In this document: piece by piece, positions 20,891 through 48,932 of the stretch
Position numbering within the stretch: position 1 is the stretch's first letter
Layout: each line of letters opens with the position of its first letter
NCBI GenBank assembly: GCA_003650675.1
Contig: QMRH01000002.1
Location: 1-60,079 of the forward strand
Direction of reading: 5' to 3'
From: Thermoprotei archaeon
Lineage (GTDB): Archaea > Thermoproteota > Thermoprotei > Thermofilales > B20-G17
Length of the DNA stretch: 60,079 nucleotides
Translations under genes and position numbers: made by a program
Notes under the pieces: model-generated
The model's database searches: none
Seen by the model: only the letters and a program-made list of their open reading frames with translations
What the model was told of the DNA's origin: nothing

Positions 20891-21715
20891 TCACCCTAGG
20901 TCTTCAAGCAAAAAATGTATTTCATACGCCATCCTCCTTAGGACGGTAGCATGGGCTGGATTATCCTTTGAAAGAAGGAGAAGATCTTCCACGATTATTC
21001 TACCAGCCTCCTTCACCTGTTTTAAGTATATTTCACTGTGACCTTGCTCCTCCATGTTCCTCAGCAACGCTATTATCCTCCTTAAACCCGTCTCAATTTC
21101 ATTTAAAAGTGGGTTCAGCCCCTCTCCTATACGCCGTTTAGAGCAGGGTAAAGTGTATTCGCCTCTTGGATTCAACCTATTATATAGCGCCTCAAACTGG
21201 TATCTCCATATTCTGGGATCAATGCACGGCCTCCATTCTACGCTCCTATACGCCTCTAGTATCCCAGCTTGGATAAGTTTTTTAATGTTCCTGAGGTGCT
21301 TGAAGCTTGTCCTAGATCCAAGAGCTATTCTACGCAGAAATATTTTCTCAAACCAGTTTAAGGTCGGTTTGAACCTCGGTGAACGCTCAATAATTTTCCA
21401 TAGGGTGGTTGAATCGACCAGAACTCTTCTATCGTAGAGAAGGTCTATTAACCTTCTTTCGGCTAAAAACAGTACTCCTATAAGCCATTCATTCGGTCCA
21501 ATCACCTCTATCGGAAAGACCTTCCCCCTTATAATAGATTCATGGTAGAGTACAAGTAGGGCGGTTGAAGCCAACAGTTTTGGGGGTTGATGAATATTTC
21601 TGGATACAAGTCTCCTCAATGCATTTTCTGGGATTTTGGGGGTATAGGTTCTACCGTAGAGGCCTGTAAACAGGTATCCCTGGGATTCCATCCAAAGCCT
21701 CCAGGCTGCCATCAT
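20891..21715 (-). CDS. Uncharacterised soluble helical protein of the conjugation-like operon
   Basis: A 274-residue basic, mostly helical protein with no signal peptide or membrane segment. I do not recognise a family. Regions of note are a tryptophan/leucine-rich stretch near 75-95 (PNEWLIGVLFLAERRLIDLL), a basic middle (RFKPTLNWFEKIFLRRIALG) and a C-terminal helical bundle (200-274). It overlaps the 1086-residue membrane protein upstream by four bases and is followed seven bases later by the VirB4-like N-terminal subunit. A cytoplasmic adaptor role is plausible but unproven. Confidence 0.55.
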   Translation of the reverse strand: MMAAWRLWMESQGYLFTGLYGRTYTPKIPENALRRLVSRNIHQPPKLLASTALLVLYHESIIRGKVFPIEVIGPNEWLIGVLFLAERRLIDLLYDRRVLVDSTTLWKIIERSPRFKPTLNWFEKIFLRRIALGSRTSFKHLRNIKKLIQAGILEAYRSVEWRPCIDPRIWRYQFEALYNRLNPRGEYTLPCSKRRIGEGLNPLLNEIETGLRRIIALLRNMEEQGHSEIYLKQVKEAGRIIVEDLLLLSKDNPAHATVLRRMAYEIHFLLEDLG

Positions 21716-24700
21716 GTTCCCAGCCTTTCTGCAAGCATGGTGAGAATTAGAGTATATGCCGAGGAGTTTCTTTCAAGGAGGGGTATGAGTCGTCTCTCCG
21801 ACACCAGGCTCACAGATATTTCTTCCCATATTTCCCTGTTTCCAAGCAACATTAAAGCCGTTCCAAACACCCGCCTTAACACGGAATTTGGATCGTTTAG
21901 TGGAGGGGGCTCATACCCCTCAAGTAATCTAATAAGTAGGCATAGAGCATTGATGTCCCCAAGGAGCCCATACACAAGGTTAGGGGGTAGGGGGAGCTCG
22001 TATACTGCTTCAAGTAGTTCATCTGGAATATAGCTCCTCCTTGCAAGCATCTCCAAAGGGTATATTTCCCTAAGCTTCTCTAGGATGCTTAACTTAATTT
22101 CATCTAAGATAAAGTCCGCTAAGACTCCCTTCTCGTCTAGATCCTTAAGGGCCCATAGACTACCCTCCTTTAAGGATTTGAAAACGATGAGTCTTAGGGC
22201 TTCGGGCGACGGCGAACCATGAGATATGCTCATCGACAGTAAAGGCGAGTCCACTAAAAGGGCTAATAGAGGGGTTAGATCTATCAGGGCCTCCTTTAAG
22301 CCCAGCGTTTTCTCTAGCTTCACCTTAGCCTCTAAGGCTGATGGGACAAGTAGAGGAGAATCCAACGATGCTACAGCCAGGGTTAAGGCTTCAACCATGC
22401 TATTACCATTAGAAGGCTTGTGTTCCAGGATCCCTTTAAGCCGTTCACCGTACTCGGCCACCAGCACCGCTATCCTCGCTAGTATCCTTTTCTCCGATTC
22501 ATCTAAAGACAATAATTTTTCAAATACTTTTGCCACGGTTATTCCTTGAAGTATAGTCAGCATACTTCGATAGAACTCTTTCTCCATATAACCGGCGGAC
22601 TTAATTACTCGGACTATGTTTAGAAGATTACCTGCATCTATTTTCACACCATGCTCCTCAACGTATTTTAACTCCTTTTCGAAGTTCCGTGAAAACCAGT
22701 TCCAAGGGTCTTTAAGCACCTTGTCAACCTCAAAGCCGGACTCCAGGATCCTTCTTCCATACTTTCCTTTGTACACTGTTTCCAGTAGTCGTGAAAGATC
22801 CTCGAAGAATTTTTCCTTCTCCATGATGGTGGAGGCTCTTTGAAAAAGCTCGATGAAACTCCTAGATAGCTTTTCAGGCCTATAGCTCACAAAGGTATAC
22901 ATTTTATCCAGCATTTTCTTCGATGTCGACCAGGGGGCGTTTAAACCATTATAGATTCCAACGGCGTCGCATGCAAGTCTGAAGATTAAGGGTGTTAAAC
23001 CCTTCTCGTTAAAAATTTTCGCGGCATAGCTTCCTCCAACGTAAACCATCGAAAGGGATTTAGCCAACGTTTGCTGGAGCCCTGGGTTTTTCAACCAAGC
23101 CAGCATTTTCTCCAGCTTAAGCCTCGTAATGCTGATTTTCTCCTTTAATGTAGGAGCTCTTCCAGGAGGCCCCAATTTAACGACCCGTGATGCCATTAAA
23201 CTGTCCTGTCCACCACCCGTAAACCTTTTTGAGAGAATATTTGACGCTAGTTTACCTAAGTGGAACACCGTACGATGGACTATCGTGAGCGTAGAGTAGA
23301 TGAATGAATATGTTTTAGGCGAAAGCCGTCTACCCAGCGTCCCTGTCAAAGAGTATCCTCCTAAAAATCCTCCTAGAATGTCGAAGGCAAAAGCAGTCAA
23401 TATGAAGTTCACTAGAAGTGAGTAAACTGTAGAGAAGAGTTCGGCTATGAAGGAAAAATCCTTCTCCAAAGCTTCCCTATAGGTGGAGTTTAGTAGGGGT
23501 GTTGAAGTTAACCATGGCTGGAGAGCCCAGGGTTTCCCTGAGGGTTTAAACTTTAGTTCAATGATTCCTCTAGAGTGTTGCTGGGATTCAACACGTCTCA
23601 ACCTTATCAGCCACGATTGAGGCCTATATGTAGCGTATTCCCTTGCCGACGCCTCGTCTAATAGCCCTATAGTGGGGGAGGCTGAGTTAAGCCAGTTTTG
23701 GAGTTGAATCCACGTGACGTAGCTGTTGTAGAGATTAATCAGAAACTGTGGCTCAACCCACTTTATGTTAAAGTCTTCTAGAGGCATGTAGCTCAAGTTA
23801 TAGTATACTTTAAATTCATCGGATTCTACAGCCTCGGGTTGAGCCCCCACTACCAACATCTCAACACGTTCTTCAGCATTTATGTTGAAGGATAGCTCTA
23901 AACCGTTGTTGTAGACTATTCCGCAAGAAATGTTTTTTAAATAGACGATGCCGAGGAGGCTTCCGTTCACCATTATGGGGGCCGCAGGAACGTTGATTTC
24001 CACCACATCTGCTTCACCTTCGTAGAAAAGGTATCCGTCTTGGTACACCCCTTTAGCCGATCCCTGTAGATTCTGGGGGGAAGCCACGGTGCTTAGGTTT
24101 CCCAGGAGGGGCTTGGTTATCTGTATGCTCATATTTAGGGGAATTTTAACCCAACAGACTACTGCTTCCTTTAAACGATAGTTTCCTAAAGGTAATACTA
24201 GAAGCCTTTTACCGTACTTGTTTAGCTGAAAGATGTAGGTTCCAGCATCGCCTTCTAAAACTAAGACCATGTAAGGGATATTTGATTCAAAGAGGGCTAC
24301 TCCCGGCTCACCAAGATCATTGAACTCTAGTGGGGGGATCCTGATCCCGCTAATAACCGTGTTCACCGAGAAGGGTAGAACATAGCCTAACAGAATCCCC
24401 CATAGGAGAAAGGTTAGGGCGAGTCTTCTACCGCGTGTGAAAACCGGCGTTAAAGCTCCCACTGTTAGGAAAAGGGGTGATAAGCGTATTGACAGTGAAA
24501 TTAACTCCTTCACTAGAAGGAGAATAACTAATGCAAAACTATACATTCTAGTAAAAGAGTATAATATCGTTGTTAACGTGTCTGAAGCTAGCTTAATGTA
24601 AGGCGTGAAGGTTAAAGTAACATAGGGTTGAAGCGAAGCCAATACCATGAAGAACGTCTCCACATAATATGATGCAAGGATCCCTGATGCGGCGCTACTT

Positions 24701-24972
24701 ATGCGTGCAGCCAGCTTCCCGGAAATGGATTCAACTCTTCTATACGCCTCTTCGAGATCCAGGCTGATGAAGGGTACTCCTACGATCCTGGAGACCCACC
24801 ATGGATTCAATAGCTGGATGAAAACCAGCGACGCTAAGATGGAGAGTGTTGTTTTAGTAAAACTCTCTAACGCATTTCTTCTTCGACCTTCAAGCCACCG
24901 TAACACTATTACAGAATATTCTAGGACAACTACAATTACGATAAACCTTACGAGAAGGTCTCTCAGACTCAT
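21712..24972 (-). CDS. Large membrane protein with exofacial and helical cytoplasmic domains
   Basis: A 1086-residue protein with about six hydrophobic segments in the first 215 residues (e.g. 8-25, 42-60, 100-120, 155-180, 190-212). A beta-rich exofacial region follows (about 215-490). Another membrane hairpin lies near 505-550 (YSLLVNFILTAFAFDILGGF), then a long all-helical cytoplasmic domain (560-1086). The polytopic N-terminal part, next to VirB4-like genes, is consistent with an extended VirB6-type channel subunit. No family is recognised with certainty. It is encoded inside an overlapping operon, so it is almost certainly a structural part of the same apparatus. Confidence 0.6.
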   Translation of the reverse strand: MSLRDLLVRFIVIVVVLEYSVIVLRWLEGRRRNALESFTKTTLSILASLVFIQLLNPWWVSRIVGVPFISLDLEEAYRRVESISGKLAARISSAASGILASYYVETFFMVLASLQPYVTLTFTPYIKLASDTLTTILYSFTRMYSFALVILLLVKELISLSIRLSPLFLTVGALTPVFTRGRRLALTFLLWGILLGYVLPFSVNTVISGIRIPPLEFNDLGEPGVALFESNIPYMVLVLEGDAGTYIFQLNKYGKRLLVLPLGNYRLKEAVVCWVKIPLNMSIQITKPLLGNLSTVASPQNLQGSAKGVYQDGYLFYEGEADVVEINVPAAPIMVNGSLLGIVYLKNISCGIVYNNGLELSFNINAEERVEMLVVGAQPEAVESDEFKVYYNLSYMPLEDFNIKWVEPQFLINLYNSYVTWIQLQNWLNSASPTIGLLDEASAREYATYRPQSWLIRLRRVESQQHSRGIIELKFKPSGKPWALQPWLTSTPLLNSTYREALEKDFSFIAELFSTVYSLLVNFILTAFAFDILGGFLGGYSLTGTLGRRLSPKTYSFIYSTLTIVHRTVFHLGKLASNILSKRFTGGGQDSLMASRVVKLGPPGRAPTLKEKISITRLKLEKMLAWLKNPGLQQTLAKSLSMVYVGGSYAAKIFNEKGLTPLIFRLACDAVGIYNGLNAPWSTSKKMLDKMYTFVSYRPEKLSRSFIELFQRASTIMEKEKFFEDLSRLLETVYKGKYGRRILESGFEVDKVLKDPWNWFSRNFEKELKYVEEHGVKIDAGNLLNIVRVIKSAGYMEKEFYRSMLTILQGITVAKVFEKLLSLDESEKRILARIAVLVAEYGERLKGILEHKPSNGNSMVEALTLAVASLDSPLLVPSALEAKVKLEKTLGLKEALIDLTPLLALLVDSPLLSMSISHGSPSPEALRLIVFKSLKEGSLWALKDLDEKGVLADFILDEIKLSILEKLREIYPLEMLARRSYIPDELLEAVYELPLPPNLVYGLLGDINALCLLIRLLEGYEPPPLNDPNSVLRRVFGTALMLLGNREIWEEISVSLVSERRLIPLLERNSSAYTLILTMLAERLGT

Positions 24973-27230: not shown

Positions 27231-29732
27231 CTACTCCTCACCCTTCTCTAAATTCCTGAATTCAAAGGGGAAGGGACAGTAGATCACGTTCCGCGATTCC
27301 ATAGGTAGATAGATGAGCTTAAGGCCTTCAAGTAGGCTGGTCAAGTCCACGTAAACCCTGTATACTGTAGCGTTAAGATACTCTGTGAAAACGACATCAC
27401 CGTAGACTACTGTCAGGTTGCCTGGCGGGTGGAAAGAGGCTCCTAAAGCATTTACTTTAAAGTCCACGAACTCTTCAGCTAATTGAACTATTTCAATACC
27501 TATTGGAATCAACGGTAGATCCTTAGCGAAGGGTAGTGGGGAACCGTCAGGCCAATTCAATTCAACCTTAATCCTTGCGCCTCCCTCCCTAACGACTTGA
27601 TACAGCTTCGATAAAGGTATGTTTACATTGGCTACACCCCTTCTCATCGTCGACTTAATTTTTTCTGTACCCAGCTCCACGGTTGCAAGCAGATTCGCAT
27701 TTAAGGACCTGTTTTGCAGTAGAGGATTAGTATAACTGGCTATTATACGTAGTTGAACAGAGGCGATATTATAGGTGGCTTCAACCCCTATGGATAGCCC
27801 CGATGGATACACTTTCAAAAGCCGTGTACCGTTAACCAGTAAATAGAAGAATCCATCTAATTGACCCGTATCGGAAGACGAAAACACTAAGCCAGCTAAA
27901 CCATCCTCCAGCGAAGGAAGGGTAAGCGGCTTCTTTAAGTCTACAGTAAACGGTAGTTGTCTCGATGCCCCATTGTTAAACACTGCTAGAATAGACTTCC
28001 TGAAGGAATGTGGTTCAACGTCTATGTAAAGTGTACCTGCATAAAGATGTAAACCCGTTATCCACTGCTGTGGTATAACAGCCTTTTCCTGAACCCCATA
28101 CATGAGCTTAAGCAGGGAAGTGGAGTTATTGGGAACAGTTACTTTAAATAAGGTAAAGTAGCCAGATGGATACTCCTTTAGGTTGCCTGCCCCCTCTAGA
28201 ATACATCCTGTTAAGGGGCTTCCATCGACATATACTTCGAGCCTAGAAAAAACTATTTTAACCCTCTTCTCTGAGCTTAAAACTAGTCTCCAGAGGCCTT
28301 CAGGAACCTTTAGAAATACATCACCTTGATCTGAGCTAAGTACCGTCGCTAGGATAAATCTACCATCGTCAGATAAAAGGCCTACCTCCAGTCCTGAAAG
28401 CTTAACTCCCTGGTAACTTAGTTTAGCTGAACCCGATTTCAAATAATTCCTTGCAATTATTCGGCTACCCTTAGACAGGAAGTCTATTCTAAGGCGACCC
28501 GCATAACTGCGAAGTACTACGTTTCCGGCAGTCTCCCATAGGGTAGCATCGAGTAAATTCAACGGTTTACCGTCGAAGATGAAGACCGGTACACGTATGA
28601 AAGCCTCGAAAAGAGAGTTTTCGAGACTGCGATAAACTATGGTAAAAGGGGTGTAATCCACCTTTTCCTCCGGCTGGAAGGATGTTGTGAATGATAAAGG
28701 TATTGAGACCTCTTTTCCACCTTCAAGAGCGACTATTCCAAGCGTACTTTGATAGAGGTAGTACAATGCCTTTATCCTTGAAATCTCCTTATTGGAAGCA
28801 AATTCAATTGACCTATTGTAAACCCTATTCTGGGTGCCTTTTCTCGTCTCGAAAATCCATGAATCGAAAAGGAAACCTCTCCATGAGGGGGGTGCTGTGA
28901 AATTGGCCTTTGTAAAATCAGTATTAAGTATAAACGGAGTATTTTCCTCTCCTTCCTTGATGGTTGAACCTGAGAACACCCTGTATTTTATTGGAACACC
29001 GCCCATTAAATCCAAGTTGCTTTCTACAACTAGGCCTCCGCTTCCAGTAGATGATGGAAGTCCCTTCTCTTGGTATGTTATGAATAACGTAGCTCTGTAG
29101 AGTAGCCCACCTGCATTTAACAGCCCTTCTTGCTCGTTTTCAATGCCCACAACGACAGACACGTATTCTATTGAACAGTAATCCAGTTCGAGTAGCAATT
29201 CCTCACAATCCTCTAATGTTTCTTCGAAGAGAGTAAAGTTTTGTTCCAAGTGTATTAGGGTGGAAGGCTGAGTCAAATAAAGATATTTTTCCATCGCATA
29301 AACCCTTTTTACCGTGAATTCCTCCTCATTTACATCTAAGGAAGAACCAGTCACATCGATTTTCATTTTAGAGTAAAGTAGATTTATCGTGTAGAGTGCT
29401 TCGACGCGGAGGTGAACTACCAGGCCACCGGATCCCCCAGTATATATTTCCGTTATATCTTTTAGCTCGAAAACCAGGTTCCCTGTTAAAGATACTTTTT
29501 TCACATTACTTCCGAGAACCCTTATTTCACCGTGGAAAACCCTTCCACTCTGGTTTAAAGTAATATCGTTGTAGGTTATTTTTATAGGTGACTCATACCC
29601 CACTACATCGATTAAAGCATTGTTGACCGTTGTATAGGCGAGCCACCCCTGTAGAAGAAACGTATATAATAGGAGCATTACTGTTTTCCAAAGATACTTG
29701 CTGTCCCTTTCTGATCTCTCCACCAGACACAC
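27231..29732 (-). CDS. Large surface protein, candidate adhesin or pilus-tip protein
   Basis: An 833-residue protein that opens its operon. It has one N-terminal membrane segment (about 15-35, WKTVMLLLYTFLLQGWLAYT) and then about 800 residues of beta-strand-rich sequence with many N-glycosylation sequons and almost no cysteine. A stretch near 290-330 (PPSWRGFLFDSWIFETRKG) resembles the strand-turn-strand of bacterial surface repeat domains. Size, topology and its place at the head of a minor-pilin cluster fit a tip or adhesive subunit. No family is recognised. It diverges from the ParA-like gene across a 154-base AT-rich region that must hold both promoters. Confidence 0.55.
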   Translation of the reverse strand: MCLVERSERDSKYLWKTVMLLLYTFLLQGWLAYTTVNNALIDVVGYESPIKITYNDITLNQSGRVFHGEIRVLGSNVKKVSLTGNLVFELKDITEIYTGGSGGLVVHLRVEALYTINLLYSKMKIDVTGSSLDVNEEEFTVKRVYAMEKYLYLTQPSTLIHLEQNFTLFEETLEDCEELLLELDYCSIEYVSVVVGIENEQEGLLNAGGLLYRATLFITYQEKGLPSSTGSGGLVVESNLDLMGGVPIKYRVFSGSTIKEGEENTPFILNTDFTKANFTAPPSWRGFLFDSWIFETRKGTQNRVYNRSIEFASNKEISRIKALYYLYQSTLGIVALEGGKEVSIPLSFTTSFQPEEKVDYTPFTIVYRSLENSLFEAFIRVPVFIFDGKPLNLLDATLWETAGNVVLRSYAGRLRIDFLSKGSRIIARNYLKSGSAKLSYQGVKLSGLEVGLLSDDGRFILATVLSSDQGDVFLKVPEGLWRLVLSSEKRVKIVFSRLEVYVDGSPLTGCILEGAGNLKEYPSGYFTLFKVTVPNNSTSLLKLMYGVQEKAVIPQQWITGLHLYAGTLYIDVEPHSFRKSILAVFNNGASRQLPFTVDLKKPLTLPSLEDGLAGLVFSSSDTGQLDGFFYLLVNGTRLLKVYPSGLSIGVEATYNIASVQLRIIASYTNPLLQNRSLNANLLATVELGTEKIKSTMRRGVANVNIPLSKLYQVVREGGARIKVELNWPDGSPLPFAKDLPLIPIGIEIVQLAEEFVDFKVNALGASFHPPGNLTVVYGDVVFTEYLNATVYRVYVDLTSLLEGLKLIYLPMESRNVIYCPFPFEFRNLEKGEE

Positions 29733-35475: not shown

Positions 35476-36261
35476 TTACTTCGACTTTAAGAGCATGTAA
35501 ACTATTACCAAAATAACTGCTAGACCTGTAAAGGCTCCGGCAATGGCCAATATAGTGTAAATGTTGAAGCCTTCACCTTCATCTGTAGGCGTCTCCGTTG
35601 ACTGGGAAACGTTTTCAGAGCCGTAATAGTATTTCCTAACCAGTTTCATGAATTTATCCCAGTCAAATGTCGATCCCGGGTCACTGTGATGACTTTTCCC
35701 TCCACCTAGACGGGGGTTATTGGGGTCGGGAACCTGGTTGTGTCCTATTATACCGGTGCTTGATTCAGGGTTGGCTGGTGCCACACCCTTCGGATGGACT
35801 GGCTCAATCTTATATTTTTTAGCAAGCCAGGCTACAAGCTTAGCCAGTGCATCGTACATGCTGTCGGGCCATCGCGTTACCCCAACATATCCCTCTATCT
35901 CTATTCCTATTGAATGGGTGTTATAGGCCCAGTTGCCTGCATGCCATGCCACATCCTTGTCCCTTACCATCTGTGTTATCTCGCTTCCATCCATCTTAAC
36001 AACGTAGTGGGCGCTGACCTTTGCCTGAGGGTTCTTAAACCAGGAGATCGTCCCAGAATAACTGCCTTCAGCTACATGTATTATAATCCATCTTATATCG
36101 TAGGTTTCTTCCCTATTGGATGTAGTATAGTTGTTTTTGTACGCTGGGTTCCAGACGGCTTGAGGATAATCCGGCTGACCTGAAACCATAAATGTACCCA
36201 CTAAAAATACTAGTAGAAGAAACTTAAATAGGGTTTTTCCGGTAACCGCCCTTAGCCACAT
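35476..36261 (-). CDS. Membrane-anchored N-acetylmuramoyl-L-alanine amidase (Amidase_2)
   Basis: A 261-residue secreted hydrolase with a signal sequence (1-28) and an Amidase_2/PGRP catalytic domain (about 45-210). Zinc ligands are visible as H62 (IIIHVAEG), H174 (IIGHNQV) and D194 (HSDPGSTFDW), with a supporting IGIEIEGY strand (E121). A threonine-rich stalk then leads to a C-terminal transmembrane helix (235-258). It cleaves the amide between muramic acid and peptide in bacterial walls. The catalytic domain would sit outside an archaeal cell that has no peptidoglycan of its own. It follows the VirB2/VirB6-like pair on the same strand and was probably acquired from bacteria. Confidence 0.88.
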   Translation of the reverse strand: MWLRAVTGKTLFKFLLLVFLVGTFMVSGQPDYPQAVWNPAYKNNYTTSNREETYDIRWIIIHVAEGSYSGTISWFKNPQAKVSAHYVVKMDGSEITQMVRDKDVAWHAGNWAYNTHSIGIEIEGYVGVTRWPDSMYDALAKLVAWLAKKYKIEPVHPKGVAPANPESSTGIIGHNQVPDPNNPRLGGGKSHHSDPGSTFDWDKFMKLVRKYYYGSENVSQSTETPTDEGEGFNIYTILAIAGAFTGLAVILVIVYMLLKSK

Positions 36262-40402: not shown

Positions 40403-41137
40403 TTATATTTCGGGAATTGCTGCACTTAAAACTTTTTTAATGCCTAGTATGACTTCATTTATTGGGTCTTTCAGGGATTTAACGGTTTCCTCGGCGTCGC
40501 TGTATTCTATATCCTCCTTGGCTAGTAGCGAGTCTTGCCCAGCCGTCAACATGCCTGCTTTATCAAGAAGTATCGTGATAGCCTTCTCCTTAAGCTCCGA
40601 AGGTATTTCAGCGTCGAGGAGAATCTTCTGAAGGAGCGCTACTTTTTCGTCTATACTTTTAATGAAACAGTTGTAGATCTCTAGTGGATCGCGGGATTTA
40701 GCGTTAATGCGTTTAAACAGGTCTTCCGGCATATTGAAGGCTGCTTCAACGTAATTTTCTTTAGCCTTTTTAACGTAAATTACGCTTAACCCTCTTAAAA
40801 CCAGAATCTCCTTTAAGATGGTCTCTATTCTAGCCGTTAAAGTCTCTACCATTTGGCGAAGTCTATCCCTCTCTTTTCTCTTCTCGATGTAACCGTCGGC
40901 AATCTCCTTAAGCCTGTTAAAGTACTCTATCTGAGTCGCGTCAGTTACTTGGAAGACTCTATCATGGTATTTCACTGTATAGTTACTTGCGTCGAAGACT
41001 GCGTTCAAAGCAAAGTTCTTTAAGTCGACTTGCTCCAATAGTTTAGAGGAGAAGAAAGACTTCGAAAATATTTTCAACGTCTTCTCGTCGAATTCTAGAA
41101 TGTATTTCTTTCCGCCTGAAACAACCTTAAGCTTCAT
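40403..41137 (-). CDS. Helical protein, last gene of the tubulin-like operon
   Basis: A 244-residue soluble protein. The first 60 residues are beta-rich (KLKVVSGGKKYILEFDEKTL), like a small sensor or PH-like fold. From about 70 to 130 a coiled coil follows (ADGYIEKRKERDRLRQMVETL), then a helical bundle to the end. No family is recognised. It overlaps the 329-residue gene by 11 bases, so it is translated with the tubulin-like system and probably binds one of its parts. Confidence 0.55.
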   Translation of the reverse strand: MKLKVVSGGKKYILEFDEKTLKIFSKSFFSSKLLEQVDLKNFALNAVFDASNYTVKYHDRVFQVTDATQIEYFNRLKEIADGYIEKRKERDRLRQMVETLTARIETILKEILVLRGLSVIYVKKAKENYVEAAFNMPEDLFKRINAKSRDPLEIYNCFIKSIDEKVALLQKILLDAEIPSELKEKAITILLDKAGMLTAGQDSLLAKEDIEYSDAEETVKSLKDPINEVILGIKKVLSAAIPEI

Positions 41138-42116
41138 GCCTTCTCAACCCCAGGATTTCCAGTGTGCTTAAAGCTGGCTTCGGGTCGGATACTATCTTCT
41201 CCACCATCCTACAGCTGGATGAGAGATGCCCATACCAATTGTCGGATAAACGTGTGGTAGCCATAAGCAGGACCATGAGCTCCCTATCCTTACTGTCGCC
41301 GTAAATTACATCGGCGTCCACAAGGTTGCTGAACTTTGTAAGCCAGAGACGAAACTCGTGCTCGGTGGTTGCAGGCTCCTCCTCGAATCCCGTACCGTCC
41401 AAATATAATATAACGTAGTTGACGTCCTCTCTATCATATTTTAGTAAGCTGTTTTCCTCAGCGATATTCAACGCCCCCTGTAGTCCAGTAAACATGCTTG
41501 CATGAACATTGTACATGATCGACGGAGATATTATCTTGGATTTAAGGGAACTTATTTTCCTAATTCTCTCTGTTCCAAGGATGGGGAATAGGCTTTCTAT
41601 CAAGTCTCCTAAAACTTCGGCTGGTTGTTTTATTATACCCTTGTCGATGAACATTAATTCATTCCAGAGAAGCTCATAATCCAGCAAAATTATCGATCTA
41701 CTTTTTGTTAGTCCAGGGTGGATGCCTTTAAGGGCCTCGAACACCCGTAGTGGAGGCTCCCCCTTAGGCGGCACTATGGTTATAAATGCGTCTATACTGT
41801 TATCCCACTCTGAGACAACCTTATTTAATGTATGGAATAAGCGATCCTCAGCCCTGCCCGCTATAAACAGCTGGGTGACGTGTTTAACACCTAGACTTTG
41901 TAGCCACTTCTCAATAACCCCTCTTCCCTCCCCCTCCAAGTCCCTAGTATGTAAAGTTAGATTCGGGGCGTCAAGCCGTGTGGCGTCCCCTTCATTCAAG
42001 TATACCGTAAATCGGCCACGTTTAGCGAAGCCTAGGTTGATTGCTATAGCCAGCCGGTTCGGCAAGTTTATCTCTATTCTAGGAATCTTGAATGCATCTG
42101 TAAGTCTAGAGCTCAC
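41127..42116 (-). CDS. Possible degenerate tubulin/FtsZ-fold protein
   Basis: A 329-residue soluble protein with no Walker motifs. Read against FtsZ it follows the fold order: strand RLAIAINLGFAKRG (21-34) where the T1 loop would be, TVYLNEGDATRLDA (37-50) at T2, HTRDLEGEGRGVIEKWL (56-72) at T3, and TQLFIAGRAEDRLFHTLNKV (81-100) where the glycine-rich T4 would be. Next come FITIVPPKGEPPLRVFEALK (111-130) and RSIILLDYELLWNELMF (140-156), close in feel to the tubulin strand ending in LDNEALY. The GTP-binding glycines are missing, so it would be a non-GTPase partner of the 883-residue protein. This is pattern-based inference. Confidence 0.4.
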   Translation of the reverse strand: MSSRLTDAFKIPRIEINLPNRLAIAINLGFAKRGRFTVYLNEGDATRLDAPNLTLHTRDLEGEGRGVIEKWLQSLGVKHVTQLFIAGRAEDRLFHTLNKVVSEWDNSIDAFITIVPPKGEPPLRVFEALKGIHPGLTKSRSIILLDYELLWNELMFIDKGIIKQPAEVLGDLIESLFPILGTERIRKISSLKSKIISPSIMYNVHASMFTGLQGALNIAEENSLLKYDREDVNYVILYLDGTGFEEEPATTEHEFRLWLTKFSNLVDADVIYGDSKDRELMVLLMATTRLSDNWYGHLSSSCRMVEKIVSDPKPALSTLEILGLRRHEA

Positions 42117-42117
42117 A

Positions 42118-44538
42118 TTAGACCACCTCTCTCCTCCTAACTATCATCCCCGATGAATCGAAAGTGTATTCTAGGTTTTTAAGTGTAAATAATTTCACGA
42201 AGAAGCGAGAGTATTCTTCTCTTAAAGGTATATCCTCTAGGTGAACGCGCTTTTTCTTTTCTAAAAGTTTCTTAACGTACCTCTCCACCTGGGGAAACAC
42301 GCTTGCGGCCTTTATGAGAACCTTGTCCCTCTCCATCGCTTCAAGCAACTTTTTCCTAAGCTCAGTATATTCTCTTGCTAGACGGTATAAGTCCTCCCCT
42401 GACCTCCAGGATCTCAAGCGTTTTTCAAGCCTCCCCATGGCCTCAATGTACGCCGACGATTCTGTCCTTATAAGTGAGGGGTCTATGCCCGATTCCTTAA
42501 CCAAAGTGTAGACCAGGTTGTTGAACCCTTCAATCCTCTTCCTATATTCACTTAACTCGCCTGCAAGTTTTTCAACGGCCTCGTCCAATACCTTGATGAA
42601 CAAATCTGCGTTCAACACGTTTTTAAACTTTTCTTCAACTTCCATCCCGAAAACACCTGCTATTTTCCCGCACATCTCCCTGTACCTCTCGCTGAACGTT
42701 GCATGTAAACCCAAGAGACTCCTTCTGACAAAGAGGTCGAGTATCATGTAGTCCCTCTTAAAGCTCTCTTTGTTTGGAACGGTGTAAATTTCCTCCACCT
42801 CGGGGATAAGCTTGCTTAAAGCCTCTATGACCCTACTATATTTTTCAAGAACAATGTCCACTAGGTTCAGGAAAAGCTGTCTAGCATAATTATACGTTTT
42901 TATGGTTTCCTCAAACCCCATATCCTCCAACTTCACTTCAATAGGTTTCATCTTCTCTAGTTGTTCATGCTCATAACCCAGCCGTCTGAGCTGAGTTAAG
43001 ACCATGTTGTAGATGTCTAGCAGGGTTTTTGTCTTAGATCTTATTTCAAGTTCAAGTGTTCTGGAGCGTCTTTCGATCTCCCCACTTAATGCCCTAATCT
43101 TCTTTATGCTATCCTTCAAATCATTGATGCTTGAGCTACGTAGAGCAGCGGCAACCATGTTTTCGGCACCCTCGTAAAGCTTGTCTACCACTATTTTTTC
43201 GGGTACGTCGAGACCTGTTTCCGCTTTCAGACGCTTGTACTTGAGGGTGAAAAGATCGTATTTATCTATAAGGCTCTCATGAACCTCTCTAAGCCTTTTC
43301 TTGAGCTGGTCAAGCTGCGTTATACGGTATTCGAGGTAATCTCTTATAGAAATAACGCTACCTAACCCAAGGACAAAAAGTATGGAGTATAATCCGGCAG
43401 TCCCCTCCAATGTGATGTCGGTTCTGTACATTAAGGGGTCTTTCATGGAATTTATAAGCCATATGGTTAGTGCCGTTAAAACGGTTACTGAGATTATGGT
43501 TGAAAGTAGCCTAAAGGGTGGGAACTTTTTCTCTAAGAGACCTATAAACCTCCTGTTGATAAAGTCGCTGTATATTAGGAACATGCCTATGGCGAGTATA
43601 ACTCCTATCGAAACGCTTATCATCACCATTAGTATGAAGTGTATCACGATGTAGTTTAATAGGGAGAAGTTTAGGCCCCCAAGTATAATGTTAATCCATT
43701 CCCTAAGCCGAGAAAACGAAAACAGTGTTCTTGCATCCATTTTCACCCCGATTTTATCAAGGAATTCATTTAGCCCCGCTACAACGTTGTTCATGGGTCC
43801 CGTTTTCCCAGATGCTCCGCTAGTGAATTTGATTATGAAGTCCCATATATTACTGACTGGAGGTACCAAATCTATGGGTAGCTTTAGCGGGCTACCTTTA
43901 CCGAGTATATCCGAGTAGCCTCCATAGATATTGGTGTATGGCACCGTTAAAATGGAGTACGAGGGTAAAACTTCACTCCCCATAAACGAAGACTGGTAAA
44001 CAATGTTAGCTAAGTTCATGGCCAATACGAACGGAGTGTAAATGGCTAGGAAGAGCAAGACCACCGAGGTGGCTGTCTTAGCATCTATGCGTTCCAAAGC
44101 TATAGTTAATATTATTAATGGTATCGAAAACACAAAGAAGGTGGGGTGAAGTGTAAGGGCGGCGGAGAGAAAGACTATGAACTTGATGGTTGGCTTTACC
44201 GTGAAGGAGGAGACTATAAGGTAGAGTATTGTTAGAAAAGAGATGTTCATGAATATTAGGAGATCCAGTCCCCTATATACGTAGAAGATGTTAAGTAACA
44301 GTGCCAAGTAGGATAATATATAGAAGATTTTGAAGCCTAAATCCATCTTGCCTTGGAAACTTAACAGTGCTATAAGAAGAGAAATTATGGATGGGATTAT
44401 GTAGTTTCCACCTACAGGTAGAAGCGGGAAGATGTACAGGAAGCCTAGTGAAGAAACAAAAGCTATTATACTGTTGATGCTTCTGTTTATTCTGTCCAGC
44501 AGAAGTTTCTCGGTGGATGGAGTCTCCGCCAAAATCAC
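42118..44538 (-). CDS. Polytopic membrane protein with long cytoplasmic coiled coil (tubulin-like operon)
   Basis: An 806-residue protein. The N-terminal 400 residues hold about 11-12 transmembrane segments with one larger exofacial loop (about 195-285). The C-terminal 400 residues are cytoplasmic and mostly coiled coil (DQLKKRLREVHESLIDKYDL near 400, and further heptads around 450-530 and 640-740). No enzyme motif was seen. It overlaps the tubulin-like gene by four bases and is followed by one base and the degenerate tubulin-like gene. It is a likely membrane receptor that binds filaments through its coiled coil. Confidence 0.6.
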   Translation of the reverse strand: MILAETPSTEKLLLDRINRSINSIIAFVSSLGFLYIFPLLPVGGNYIIPSIISLLIALLSFQGKMDLGFKIFYILSYLALLLNIFYVYRGLDLLIFMNISFLTILYLIVSSFTVKPTIKFIVFLSAALTLHPTFFVFSIPLIILTIALERIDAKTATSVVLLFLAIYTPFVLAMNLANIVYQSSFMGSEVLPSYSILTVPYTNIYGGYSDILGKGSPLKLPIDLVPPVSNIWDFIIKFTSGASGKTGPMNNVVAGLNEFLDKIGVKMDARTLFSFSRLREWINIILGGLNFSLLNYIVIHFILMVMISVSIGVILAIGMFLIYSDFINRRFIGLLEKKFPPFRLLSTIISVTVLTALTIWLINSMKDPLMYRTDITLEGTAGLYSILFVLGLGSVISIRDYLEYRITQLDQLKKRLREVHESLIDKYDLFTLKYKRLKAETGLDVPEKIVVDKLYEGAENMVAAALRSSSINDLKDSIKKIRALSGEIERRSRTLELEIRSKTKTLLDIYNMVLTQLRRLGYEHEQLEKMKPIEVKLEDMGFEETIKTYNYARQLFLNLVDIVLEKYSRVIEALSKLIPEVEEIYTVPNKESFKRDYMILDLFVRRSLLGLHATFSERYREMCGKIAGVFGMEVEEKFKNVLNADLFIKVLDEAVEKLAGELSEYRKRIEGFNNLVYTLVKESGIDPSLIRTESSAYIEAMGRLEKRLRSWRSGEDLYRLAREYTELRKKLLEAMERDKVLIKAASVFPQVERYVKKLLEKKKRVHLEDIPLREEYSRFFVKLFTLKNLEYTFDSSGMIVRRREVV

Positions 44539-47186
44539 ACCTCCATCGCGGTTTTTGAGCGGGTTTTCTCGGCCTCTGTATACAATTTTACGGCGTCAAC
44601 ACCCTGCTCAAGGAGAAAGGACATGAACATCGTTCTATCGATCACCTGGTAGGCGTTGAACCTTATTGTATCGTATATTTCCAGGTGCTCTGGCTTAGCC
44701 TTAGCACATATTATCAGGAACTCTATTGTCCACGGATCCACGGGCTCGATAGGTCTTATATTTATAGCTATACCCGCCTCCACAAGCGCGTAGATCGCCA
44801 GGGAGTTTCTCAGGCTTTCCTCTAGATCCTTATCCCATATTATTGGCGTGGCTACTATAGCCCATATTACATCGCTCCTATAGTTGTCTTTAAGCCCGAA
44901 AAATCCCGGGACGGAGAACGTTTTCATATGGCTTTTAAGGATGTCTCTTAGCCGCGCCATGTTTATTATGTTTTTTACTTCGGATGGGTCTCTGAGCTTC
45001 TCCTCTTCCTCCCTCATTATGACACCAAGTATCCTTAGCCTCTCCTCCTCTGTTAACTCGATAACCCTTTCGAAGAACCTTGTTGATCGGGTGGCCTCAC
45101 TCATCCTCCTGGTGTATTCAGCATCTATTCTAGCTATGGAATTCAATGTATTCCTATAATCGCTGTTTATCTCAAGGCTTTCAATGATCTTGTCTATAGT
45201 CTTAAGCGTGTACTCTATGTCGCTTCTCTTAGAATAGTAGTAGTCGAGCTCCGACTTTATTTTGCTGATCTCTTCTTCGAGATCCGAGATCTCCGCCCGC
45301 AATCTCTTCTTCTTGCCGCTGAGGTCTATCCTTATCCTTGAAATCTTCTCCCTTAACTGGTCGATACTTTCTTTCCTCTCCGCCATGCTCCTCTCCAATG
45401 CCTCAATGTAAGCTGCGAGAGTATTCTTCCTGTCTTCAAACCTCCTTTTAGCTATAACAAGGGATGTTAAAACAGGGTCTATCATCTTCGCCTCCTTGGT
45501 GGGTTCCTCGAGAATCGTTGACACAAGCTTGTAGAGGGCTATTGAAAGCTCTAAAGCCCCCTCAAAGACGTCGCTAACTTCTTTGCTAGTCTTCGCATAA
45601 AGTACACGAAGCTCCTCTGCAAGATATCGGGTCCGCAGGTACCTTTGAAGGAAGTTTATAGATATGTCCACTAGCTTCAACAGTGTTAACGTCCTTCCGA
45701 GATAAGCCTTCTGCTTCCACGTCAATTCCTTTACAGTTTCCAGTCCAAGACTCAACTCCTTTTCGAATTGCTGAAGCCTGTTACCAAAGTCCTTTGAATA
45801 GTTTTTATGTGGTTTTAGAGCATAATCCAGGCACTCCCTATACTTTCTGATGTAGCTGGCTGCCATGGTGTCCTCCTCGAACCTAGTTGCCCTAAGAGGT
45901 GTTAACAGAACCTTGGAAATAGCTTGAAGAGTGTTTTCAAATGCTTTAAGGTTTTCGGACAACTCTATATCGAACCTGCCGCCCCTCCTGACGATATCCT
46001 CGGCATACTTTTCTAGCTCCACATCTAATCTATTCTCTGTGACATGTGACCGTAGCAGTTCATACAACTCACTGTAGAGTTTGTCCATGATGCTTTTAGC
46101 CTGCTCGATTAACTGAATCTTATACTGGAAAAGGTTGTTCATTAAATCGATTTTATTTAGTAGCATTCTTAGAAGCTCTATGTATTCATCTACAGGAAAC
46201 CTTATCTTCAGGATGCCTGCAACGTTCATAAACGAGTCCCTGAGCTCCGCGCTGGATCCTATGGTGGCCACCATGTCGGCTAAATCGAAGCTTGAAAGGA
46301 CTTTAATCATCTCGACTATCGCGTCGTCTATATGTCGTTTAGCCTCCTCCAATGTACCCTCCTTAGTGTAGGTGACCGCGGCTTGAAGAGGTATAAATAG
46401 TGCTAGGCTAAACGGGTTCCTATACTTTTCGCCGAAACGCTCTATCACCTTACGGTTTATCGTGTGATCGAAGAGACACCGCATCTCCTGGAGCGCCTGG
46501 TAGGGTGAAGCACCCTTCGCTAGGGAATCGTCGAGGGTTGCGGGTAGGACGGAGAGGAGGACTAATGGAACCCCGCTTCCCAGTTTCTCCCTTAGATGTC
46601 GCCCAATATCAAATACCACTCCGCTCCCGGTTCCGCCTCCGAGACCAAATATGATGTATACTATCGGTGATAAAGGTGAAGAAAGCACCTTGTCTCTGAA
46701 TTCATTTAGATAGGTGTTTAGTTGACCAAAATGGTAGTAGTTGAGAGCATATACTGCCTTTGCCAGCGCACGTTGTCTCCCGGCACCTCCTGCAAGGGAG
46801 GGGATCTTCGTTCTCAAGGTTATCCAGCTTCTATACTTCTCCGTTTTTATTCCCTCTTTAAGAAGATAATCTGGATAAAGGGACATGAAATCGAACAATA
46901 TGTCTGGGCTAGGGAACTTTATGGTTAAGGCTCTGAGGTAGAGTCTATCTAAAGGTATACCCTTCCTCCTCATCTCCTCTAGAAGCCTGTTATACTCGTC
47001 CTTCAACTCCATGATGTCCCCATCTGCTATGTCGATTGCTAGGAAAGCGGGTCTAAAGTCCTCTATGTTGAACAAGAGTTCTTTAAACACGGGTTGCCTA
47101 AGAAAGGTTGTCACAACGTTGGCTCCTGTACCGCCCAGCCCTATTATATGAAACTGGGAGTAAAATTTAATACCCTTGCTACTCAT
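44535..47186 (-). CDS. Tubulin/FtsZ-superfamily GTPase, large divergent form with coiled-coil insertion
   Basis: An 883-residue protein with a tubulin-type nucleotide pocket in the first 220 residues. T1 is IIGLGGTGANVV (14-25), T2-region FLAIDIADGD (48-57), T3 SLAGGAGRQRALAKAV (130-145), and the tubulin signature T4 FGLGGGTGSG (180-189) is followed by VPLVLLSVLPA (206-216). After about residue 380 come long helical and coiled-coil regions (strongest near 590-690) and an alpha/beta C-terminal part (770-870) ending in a basic tail. It is about twice the length of FtsZ and lacks a clear NxDxxD T7 motif. It best fits the large tubulin-like (Tubulin_2/FtsZ-like) families predicted to remodel membranes. 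Central gene of a five-gene operon. Confidence 0.75.
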   Translation of the reverse strand: MSSKGIKFYSQFHIIGLGGTGANVVTTFLRQPVFKELLFNIEDFRPAFLAIDIADGDIMELKDEYNRLLEEMRRKGIPLDRLYLRALTIKFPSPDILFDFMSLYPDYLLKEGIKTEKYRSWITLRTKIPSLAGGAGRQRALAKAVYALNYYHFGQLNTYLNEFRDKVLSSPLSPIVYIIFGLGGGTGSGVVFDIGRHLREKLGSGVPLVLLSVLPATLDDSLAKGASPYQALQEMRCLFDHTINRKVIERFGEKYRNPFSLALFIPLQAAVTYTKEGTLEEAKRHIDDAIVEMIKVLSSFDLADMVATIGSSAELRDSFMNVAGILKIRFPVDEYIELLRMLLNKIDLMNNLFQYKIQLIEQAKSIMDKLYSELYELLRSHVTENRLDVELEKYAEDIVRRGGRFDIELSENLKAFENTLQAISKVLLTPLRATRFEEDTMAASYIRKYRECLDYALKPHKNYSKDFGNRLQQFEKELSLGLETVKELTWKQKAYLGRTLTLLKLVDISINFLQRYLRTRYLAEELRVLYAKTSKEVSDVFEGALELSIALYKLVSTILEEPTKEAKMIDPVLTSLVIAKRRFEDRKNTLAAYIEALERSMAERKESIDQLREKISRIRIDLSGKKKRLRAEISDLEEEISKIKSELDYYYSKRSDIEYTLKTIDKIIESLEINSDYRNTLNSIARIDAEYTRRMSEATRSTRFFERVIELTEEERLRILGVIMREEEEKLRDPSEVKNIINMARLRDILKSHMKTFSVPGFFGLKDNYRSDVIWAIVATPIIWDKDLEESLRNSLAIYALVEAGIAINIRPIEPVDPWTIEFLIICAKAKPEHLEIYDTIRFNAYQVIDRTMFMSFLLEQGVDAVKLYTEAEKTRSKTAMEV

Positions 47187-48127
47187 CTGATAGACCTCCG
47201 AAGTTTTTCGCTTATGGAGGAAAGGTCTCGGGAAAGTCTTTTATCAACCCTCTCTAACGAAGCCTGTAGAGACGCTATATCCCTTAAAGCCGAGTTCACG
47301 GTTTCAGTTATATACGACGCCCTACCCTTAGCCCTTAAATAGAGGAGGAGGAAAACCACTGTCGTGGCGGCTAAGACACCGGCAACGCCTATCATAGAGT
47401 ACATTATAAGCGGGTTTGGCGGTTCGGGAAACTCGTAGTCCTGCAGGACGTCGACTATCCTGGTTGCAAGTTCGGTGAGCCCAAGGCTGTTGAATTCATC
47501 TGCTATCGCCAAAAGAGAGGAAATTAGATCCTCGTATGCCTCCGGTGCAGAAGACTTTATTTCGGTAACCTTCTTTTCAAATTCATAGATTTTACTAGGG
47601 AAAAGCTTGTACTTGATCTGGCCGACGACATTATCCTCTAAAACCACAGTAACCAGCCTGAAATCCGATTTAACTGTATATATTTTAAGGACCTTATTGG
47701 TGGGCGTTAAAACGGTAAAAATGACGTTGTTTTCTGCGGGAATCTTAAATTTGACACGTATAACTAAGTCTCCCTTCACAACCCTAAAGGTTATCTTCCT
47801 ATTGGTTAACTCCTTTCTAGTCCTGTTGTCAATACCAGGGTATCCGCTTGTACTGATCTCCCAGAAGGGGGTTGTAGGGGTAACGGGTTGAGCCTCGTCA
47901 GCTATTTTAATGTAGAACCTTTTATCGGGGATCGATATAGGGACACTTATAGATATTTCCAAAACATATTCTGTATCAACGAAGATAACGTCCCCTATCG
48001 GTTTATTAGCTCCCACGAAATCAAAGGACTTTATCCAGTTCTCTTGTGCTAGAACAGTGCTGGAGGAAAGGATAAATAGGACAAATGTCGTGAACCCTAG
48101 GAGAAATGTTTTACTTTTCGGAAGCAT
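47183..48127 (-). CDS. Signal-bearing single-pass protein with exofacial domain and cytoplasmic coil
   Basis: A 314-residue protein, first gene of the tubulin-like operon. It has a signal peptide (1-27, ending VLAQ) and a beta-sandwich-like exofacial domain (30-180). A helical stretch (185-235) leads to a transmembrane helix (about 244-266). The short cytoplasmic coiled coil (275-314) contains SLERVDKRLSRDLSSISEKL. It overlaps the GTPase gene by four bases. It could couple an outside ligand or S-layer to the filament inside. No family is recognised. Confidence 0.6.
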   Translation of the reverse strand: MLPKSKTFLLGFTTFVLFILSSSTVLAQENWIKSFDFVGANKPIGDVIFVDTEYVLEISISVPISIPDKRFYIKIADEAQPVTPTTPFWEISTSGYPGIDNRTRKELTNRKITFRVVKGDLVIRVKFKIPAENNVIFTVLTPTNKVLKIYTVKSDFRLVTVVLEDNVVGQIKYKLFPSKIYEFEKKVTEIKSSAPEAYEDLISSLLAIADEFNSLGLTELATRIVDVLQDYEFPEPPNPLIMYSMIGVAGVLAATTVVFLLLYLRAKGRASYITETVNSALRDIASLQASLERVDKRLSRDLSSISEKLRRSIR

Positions 48128-48311: not shown

Positions 48312-48932
48312 ATGTCGTTTAAGAGAAGGTGCTGGATCATTAAATGGAGTAATGCACTGTACTGTGGACGTTTCCAGCCACCACATCAAGGACACTTGAA
48401 TAGCGTGAAATATGGGTTAAAGTTGGCTGAAAAAGTCTACGTAGGTATAAGGGCTACCCCCCTAAGTCTCAAAGACCCCCTAACACCAGAGGAGAGAGTT
48501 GAAGCTTGGATCCGTCTCCTGAAAAGCGAGGGAATCGCCGAGAAAGTGGTTATAAAGATTATCCCCGATTTTGGAAAGGAAACAGAATTGCCGAGGGAAG
48601 ATAAGGTTGTCCTGAAAGGCCACCCCCTTCTCGAGTGGGGGAGAAAAGTAGAGGAGATTTTTGGGACAAGTCCCGAAGACACAGTGTTCATAGGTAATAA
48701 GCCTTCCATGGTTTTAGCCTTCAATCTACTTGGATATATAGTCGTACCGGGACACAGGAATGTGCATCGGTTAGTGGATGTATCGGCTTCACAGCTACGC
48801 CAAATGATATTAAACGAAGATAAAGAATGGATGAAACTGCTTCCTAAACCCATAACAGAATATCTCTTGGAGATTAAAATTAAGGAGAGACTTGAATCCC
48901 TCATAGGAACAGGAGACATATCGACGGGATAA
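48312..48932 (+). CDS. Nicotinamide-nucleotide adenylyltransferase-like nucleotidyltransferase (NadM family)
   Basis: A 206-residue nucleotidyltransferase. The signature YCGRFQPPHQGHL (about 17-29) contains the HxGH motif, and VSASQLRQMI (about 165-174) replaces the ISxTxIR loop. VKDPLTPEERVEAW-like segments match archaeal NadM. It would make NAD from NMN and ATP, but the altered second motif and extra N- and C-terminal residues leave room for another cytidylyl- or adenylyltransferase. ATG 48312 follows a TATA-like tttaaatata at 48294-48303. Confidence 0.78.
   Translation: MSFKRRCWIIKWSNALYCGRFQPPHQGHLNSVKYGLKLAEKVYVGIRATPLSLKDPLTPEERVEAWIRLLKSEGIAEKVVIKIIPDFGKETELPREDKVVLKGHPLLEWGRKVEEIFGTSPEDTVFIGNKPSMVLAFNLLGYIVVPGHRNVHRLVDVSASQLRQMILNEDKEWMKLLPKPITEYLLEIKIKERLESLIGTGDISTG

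Follow-up and report, generated by a model that had tools for sequence, protein, structure and literature searches.

A vWA-free archaeal gene cassette joins an FtsZl1-type GTPase to a second, degenerate tubulin and two predicted membrane proteins

A five-gene cassette from a Thermoprotei archaeon encodes two proteins of the tubulin superfamily, a GTPase of the FtsZl1/Tubulin_2 type (protein B) and a second, degenerate member (protein D), together with two predicted membrane proteins (A and C) and a fifth protein (E). The cassette lies in a 60,079-nucleotide stretch of DNA (the window) and is real: a chance occurrence of the gene set is ruled out by a B protein that passes the Tubulin_2 cut-off, by the fold matches of the AF2 models and by recurrence in dozens of genomes. 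Judged by its sequence, it looks like a candidate membrane-attached cytoskeleton. The FtsZl1 (Tubulin_2) family itself has been known since 2010 and is among the most divergent relatives of tubulin (Makarova & Koonin 2010, PMC2875224). Its presence in Sulfolobales is mentioned in a paper on Culexarchaeia (PMC9723716), and a link to membrane remodelling has already been predicted for it (PMC2875224, PMC9871819). The literature searched reports neither a tested function nor GTP-dependent polymerisation for FtsZl1. What is new here is the defined vWA-free partner set, the recognition of D as a degenerate tubulin and the T7 loop of B, none of which we found described among openly licensed PMC papers.

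The ORF list of the window places the five genes head to tail on the minus strand (40403-48127), with four-base overlaps between A and B and between B and C, a one-base gap between C and D, and an 11-base overlap between D and E, just as an earlier note made on this DNA had described:

47183-48127, minus strand: gene A (314 aa), signal or anchor sequence, extracytoplasmic region, one transmembrane (TM) segment and a short cytoplasmic helical tail, from the ORF and hydropathy.
44535-47186, minus strand: gene B (883 aa), FtsZl1/Tubulin_2 GTPase that carries a large insertion of helices and coiled coil, from PF13809, profiles, AF2 and Foldseek.
42118-44538, minus strand: gene C (806 aa), about 9-10 predicted TM segments and then a long helical cytoplasmic region, from hydropathy.
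41127-42116, minus strand: gene D (329 aa), degenerate tubulin/FtsZ-fold protein, predicted pseudo-GTPase by motif, from AF2, Foldseek and profiles.
40403-41137, minus strand: gene E (244 aa), probably beta in its N-terminal part, followed by helices, from the ORF.

Genes A to D are each preceded by a purine-rich, Shine-Dalgarno-like stretch in the window sequence, and the overlapping or nearly touching genes match the expectation for translational coupling. By Pfam, the neighbours on either side of the operon look unrelated (a nucleotidyltransferase, a glycosyltransferase, a phosphodiesterase and a PIN protein), and the upstream neighbour, at 48312, is on the plus strand. Pfam searches of A, C, D and E gave no vWA, OmpA, kinase or P-loop GTPase partner, which agrees with the initial description of an operon with two membrane proteins and without a vWA or OmpA protein. 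The partner proteins of a related Chloroflexota locus (L079) likewise had no Pfam match to a vWA domain or a distinct GTPase. Elsewhere on the minus strand of the window are a gene for a secreted, membrane-anchored N-acetylmuramoyl-L-alanine amidase (35476-36261; Amidase_2 E=3e-32), which is a peptidoglycan-type amidase in an archaeon, and two long ORFs of 1086 aa (21712-24972) and 833 aa (27231-29732) with no Pfam match at E<=0.001.

By hydropathy alone, A has an N-terminal hydrophobic segment (residues 8-26) and one TM segment (residues 246-264), and C has its TM segments within the first 400 residues, ahead of the long cytoplasmic helical region; both fit the signal-bearing, single-pass protein and the polytopic protein of the earlier note. 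In nearly all loci that show the position immediately upstream of B, an orthologue of A occupies it, and the C profile made 38 matches among the related loci examined, duplicates counted. Homologues of E were found in the B24 lineage and in locus L062, and same-position genes in other loci resemble E in having strands followed by helices. Whether the E proteins of distant groups are homologous was considered, but profile scores hardly above those of controls did not establish it. From its sequence, E is possibly a PH-like adaptor.

Protein B belongs to the tubulin superfamily, as a GTPase of the FtsZl1/Tubulin_2 type. It matches the Pfam Tubulin_2 profile (PF13809) over residues 14-338 with E=6.9e-13 and 49 bits against a cut-off of 27, scores 31.4 bits against PF00091, under the cut-off of 33, and has no FtsZ_C match in Pfam. 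Because B alone matched only coiled coils among PDB sequences, profiles and structures were used. A profile of the N-terminal domain aligned with FtsZ around T4 (E=4.6e-8), and the AF2 monomer model of B (pLDDT 85, pTM 0.74) matched CetZ2, FtsZ and tubulin with a Foldseek probability of 1.00. These results uphold the earlier note, which had called B a tubulin-superfamily GTPase and had named a match to a non-tubulin Rossmann fold as evidence to the contrary; the structural matches were to tubulin and FtsZ. Four loops were placed in B, including the three glycine loops that the earlier note had already picked out from the sequence:

47112-47141, minus strand: T1 loop GLGGTGANVV (residues 16-25), from the sequence and the FtsZ alignment.
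46773-46793, minus strand: T3-like loop AGGAGRQ (residues 132-138), conserved in homologues and putatively assigned to T3.
46620-46646, minus strand: T4 signature loop GLGGGTGSG (residues 181-189), near-invariant across 20 homologues and aligned to FtsZ GLGGGTGTG.
46275-46289, minus strand: predicted T7 catalytic loop FDLAD (residues 300-304), from conservation and the extended profile alignment.

In the extended profile alignment to FtsZ, T1 falls on T1, and SSFDLADMV of B falls on the FtsZ T7 loop INLDYADLR (NLDYADL), a T7 placement that appears only with this extension. G133, G134, R137 and R139 are invariant across 20 homologues, as are D301 and D304, and at the T7 position two further FtsZl1 proteins from Thermoproteota read TFDLDDIRT and TFDLEDLRT. 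By these motifs, B retains T1, T4 and a T7 catalytic loop. A recognisable T7 loop distinguishes B from FtsZl1 as first described, where the T6-H7 elements of the family could not be placed (PMC2875224).

Protein D is also a tubulin-superfamily protein, by descent and fold. The earlier note had its length right, as a 329-residue protein, but missed this relationship; the window D alone gave no useful family match in Pfam, and PF00091 was absent. The AF2 monomer model of D (pLDDT 77.8, pTM 0.79) matched tubulin in Foldseek with E 8.8e-11 (about 1e-10) and CetZ1 with a TM score of 0.60, and all 50 of the Foldseek matches listed were tubulin, CetZ or FtsZ. Searched against the PDB, the D profile found CetZ2 (E=2.2e-7) and then FtsZ and Asgard tubulins; with the Chloroflexota sequence removed, only tubulin-superfamily chains were listed, with a best E of 0.0033. 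Profile alignment also related D to FtsZ over 255 columns (hhalign, E=6e-8) and to B (E=6.5e-5). Since iterated searches pulled FtsZ into the D family, the homology of the D proteins was established from non-iterated profiles together with structure. A profile of the window and B24 D proteins reached Bathyarchaeia D at 5e-7, and one of Bathyarchaeia D reached the Chloroflexota D (L079) at 1e-25. The Chloroflexota protein contains ALGGGTGSGTAP, has an intact T4 motif (GGGTGSG) and passes the PF00091 cut-off (E=1.3e-9). The T4 glycines are missing from every other D, with SSxWDGxGS in Bathyarchaeia and the following in the window:

41808-41873, minus strand: degenerate T4 region of D (approximately residues 82-103), with FIAGRAEDR where GGGTGSG is expected, from the motif table and AF2 elements.

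The FtsZ T7 acids (D-x-x-D at the aligned position) were seen in no D in the motif table. By motif, D is a predicted pseudo-GTPase. Some D proteins (L039, L063, L065 and L079) have an N-terminal Cys/His zinc-ribbon-like motif. D also evolves much faster than B, with 34% identity to its B24 orthologue versus 62% for B.

The AF2 secondary structure of B has the FtsZl1-type order of an N-terminal FtsZ domain, an extended central coiled coil and a mostly helical C-terminal part, features that B shares with the published family along with T1 and GGGTGSG (PMC2875224). After T7, the B model has a strand at residues 320-329, a helical region at 332-763, a strand at 774-779, a helix at 786-799 and strands at 808-813 and 820-830. 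The corresponding order in the D model is strand 195-202, helix 212-221, strand 232-240, helix 248-259 and strands 267-272 and 280-287. The loop lengths of the two models are nearly equal, from which we infer a complete FtsZ activation domain in B, with approximately 430 residues of helices taking the place of helix H9. The models suggest that B is a whole FtsZ fold interrupted by this helical stretch:

44898-46193, minus strand: helical insertion of B (approximately residues 332-763), with two long helices at 562-616 and 625-670, from AF2 secondary structure.
44697-44867, minus strand: C-terminal strand-helix-strand-strand unit of B (residues 774-830), proposed to complete the FtsZ activation domain as its second half, from AF2 topology.

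Sequence profile comparison found no similarity between this C-terminal unit and FtsZ. A split activation domain, which the C-terminal part of B may hold, went undetected in the original account of FtsZl1 (PMC2875224).

Related loci were collected from one genome scan and from phylum searches, which gave 35 distinct loci that contain a B belonging to this clade. The full set of A, B, C and D occurs in 26 of them, and eight of the remaining loci are incomplete or broken by contig ends. The partner set, which had been thought unusual, is instead conserved and widespread as a cassette, and relatives keep the genes together, where their parting would have spoken against an operon of this kind. Two layouts occur, A-B-C-D-E and A-B-inverted D-C, and the joint presence of A, B, C and D despite this varying order points to functional linkage beyond one fixed transcript. 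A genuine exception is L058:8408-11290 (genome G097), which has a lone B of this clade, with a zinc-ribbon-like C-terminal extension and without A, C and D, so B may act alone. In L039:7514-10170 (G353), B is present as two ORFs (417 and 454 aa) inside an otherwise complete A-B-C-D-E cassette, for which a frameshift, a pseudogene and a true two-chain protein are candidate explanations. In L057:7616-11960 (G401), a 319-aa ORF interrupts the FtsZl1 gene and recurs nearby, resembling SSO1376, which is broken by a transposon (PMC2875224).

The cassette is carried by Bathyarchaeia, B24, 'Thaumarchaeota' MAGs, Desulfurococcales/Pyrodictiaceae, a Sulfolobus-like genome (G353) and one Chloroflexota MAG, which could be a mis-binned contig. 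In the tree, the window B is the sister of the B24 B with full support (62% identity). A search of 61 genomes (the window's own and its relatives) found B in the window's own genome and one weak match besides, and a Tubulin_2 protein occurs in 4 of 81 genomes of the window's class. The same class includes a tandem array of FtsZ paralogues, with four consecutive FtsZ-type genes of 312-345 aa in L059:6118-10343 (G030; PF00091 E 1e-25 to 1e-33). The window assembly is a MAG with 6.45% contamination. Genomes of the same order share 66-74% identity with the genes that flank the operon at 48312 and 50406, and B24-lineage genomes reach at most 36-39% identity to the gene at 48312. These flanks indicate that the operon is not on a contaminant contig, and a B24-like contaminant is an unlikely source, as the flanking genes are closest to the window's own order. 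The sister position of B24, the patchy occurrence and the native flanks together suggest that the cassette was likely transferred horizontally or repeatedly lost. A viral origin was also considered, and the search turned up no viral contig with a relative.

In Bathyarchaeia, gene B probably begins with ACG as a non-canonical start codon. ACG precedes the conserved B N-terminus RIYQNSVQ(L/V)(I/V)GLG in 19 of 21 distinct Bathyarchaeia loci (L041-L045, L047-L051, L055, L066, L070, L071, L073, L080-L082 and L084); the other two have ATG (L086) and TTG (L046), and the window's own B starts with ATG. An in-frame ATG, GTG or TTG upstream of the ACG is absent in most of these loci, and the next start codon downstream would often delete the T1 loop. 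The stop of A falls within a conserved GGGATGTGA that lies a few bases before the ACG, and ACG accounts for 8.7% of Thr codons within the same genes. Another start is possible in the few loci that have an in-frame GTG three codons ahead of the ACG (L055/L083) or an in-frame TTG further upstream (L048 and L073). Fusion of A and B by readthrough or frameshift in Bathyarchaeia was ruled out, as their relative frame varies. We found no account of an ACG start of gene B among openly licensed PMC papers; the probable ACG start is, in its own right, an oddity of archaeal translation initiation that can be tested.

Like the FtsZl1 neighbourhoods reported previously, the cassette is an operon with membrane proteins and a predicted connection to membrane remodelling, but it has no vWA, OmpA, kinase or P-loop GTPase gene, where a vWA or GTPase partner is typical though not universal, and it adds a second, degenerate tubulin (PMC2875224). 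A close relative has a different FtsZl1 system: L035:133-3171 (G002, of the window's family) encodes a vWA and FtsZl1 pair. There too the FtsZl1 GTPase gene adjoins a gene for a membrane-anchored protein, but the partner protein is of the classic vWA kind (PF00092 E=6e-22), and C, D and E were unseen on the 3.9 kb contig. The fold is shared with CetZ and FtsZ, the D profile being closest to CetZ2 and the B model to CetZ2/FtsZ, whereas PF00091 falls under the cut-off for B and is absent for D.

Our preferred reading, to which we give a probability of roughly 55%, is that the cassette encodes a GTP-driven, membrane-attached filament of B, which would be held by A and C, with D as a cap or partner. 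The polymerisation, contacts, cap role and membrane function that we infer from sequence and models would be as follows. B would bind GTP and polymerise head to tail as in FtsZ, each subunit using its T7 aspartates to set off hydrolysis of the GTP in the following subunit. The helical insertion would project from the filament as a docking arm, and A, with its single TM segment and helical cytoplasmic tail, and C, with its polytopic part and long cytoplasmic helical region, would be the membrane receptors. D would be a partner without catalytic activity, probably capping or nucleating the filaments of B, packing on the GTP face of B and giving the next subunit no GTP site and no hydrolysis-triggering acid. 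E probably serves as a small adaptor. The system would shape or organise a membrane patch and would not serve routine division.

It is conceivable, if rather unlikely, that B and D instead form an obligate heteropolymer like alpha/beta-tubulin or BtubA/BtubB, with the GTP of B buried unhydrolysed in the dimer and D as the subunit whose lower face is without a catalytic acid. As in those pairs, two tubulin-superfamily proteins are encoded together and one is catalytically handicapped, and nearly all complete loci have two tubulin-fold genes per cassette. Beta-tubulin is without the catalytic glutamate, much as the T7 acids are missing from all D proteins. Unlike in those pairs, D is degenerate in the nucleotide loop as well as in T7, B carries an insertion of approximately 430 residues, and the heterodimer of B and D is hypothetical. 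Outside L079 the nucleotide loop of D is lost, so the D-to-B interface would hold no GTP, and the much faster evolution of D (34% versus 62% identity to B24) is more in keeping with a regulator at the periphery than with a 1:1 subunit of the lattice.

A GTPase-tubulin system for conflict or defence, with the tubulin as an invader-triggered assembly component, is improbable. Tubulin proteins are found in DO-GTPase and vWA conflict systems, and some GAP1/DO-GTPase systems have two tubulin genes with coiled coils and membrane proteins (PMC7159879). The patchy distribution of the cassette would fit, as would the L040 neighbourhood (L040:7015-13432), where a second Tubulin_2-type gene adjoins a DO-GTPase2-like gene as in those systems and which shares its genome (G353) with a window-type cassette. 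However, the TRAFAC GTPases that define the GAP1/DO-GTPase systems and the vWA and FNIII components that go with them (PMC7159879) are absent from the cassette, which also has no effector, HSP70 or P-loop GTPase and no convincing PADLOC match, and its partners are conserved, not hypervariable.

That the cassette is the cell-division machine of the window archaeon, in place of FtsZ and CdvB, is more doubtful still. Beyond the cassette, the carrier genome gave neither a PF00091 match nor a match to Snf7/CdvB, but the CdvB search was of modest sensitivity, the assembly is a MAG, and one actin-family protein is present. The full protein occurs in the window's own genome only, among the 61 genomes, and some other holders of B also carry conventional FtsZ-type matches of FtsZ length; this rarity and the conventional FtsZ in some holders make a general division role unlikely. 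The least credible reading, a TubZ-like DNA segregation system of a mobile element, would suit the sparse distribution and a window copy closest to that of a different lineage (B24, 62% identity), but not the two membrane proteins, the lack of a recognisable DNA-binding partner gene, the lack of a viral contig with a relative, or chromosomal neighbours typical of the window's order.

In this cassette the FtsZl1 family retains the T7 loop on which assembly-driven GTP hydrolysis depends, and it is joined by a tubulin-fold partner that is, by its motifs, catalytically dead. Only tentatively do we propose that the B GTPase and pseudo-GTPase D make up a two-tubulin, membrane-anchored cytoskeleton of archaea (and perhaps a bacterium), distinct from FtsZ, CetZ, TubZ and BtubA/B. 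If true, B would have a coiled-coil arm inserted in its activation domain, and the pair would be a prokaryotic parallel to catalytic/non-catalytic tubulin pairs. The carrier archaeon has no other recognisable tubulin or FtsZ, and with the defined partner set, the T7 loop and the dead tubulin-fold partner this makes the role of archaeal non-division tubulins directly testable.
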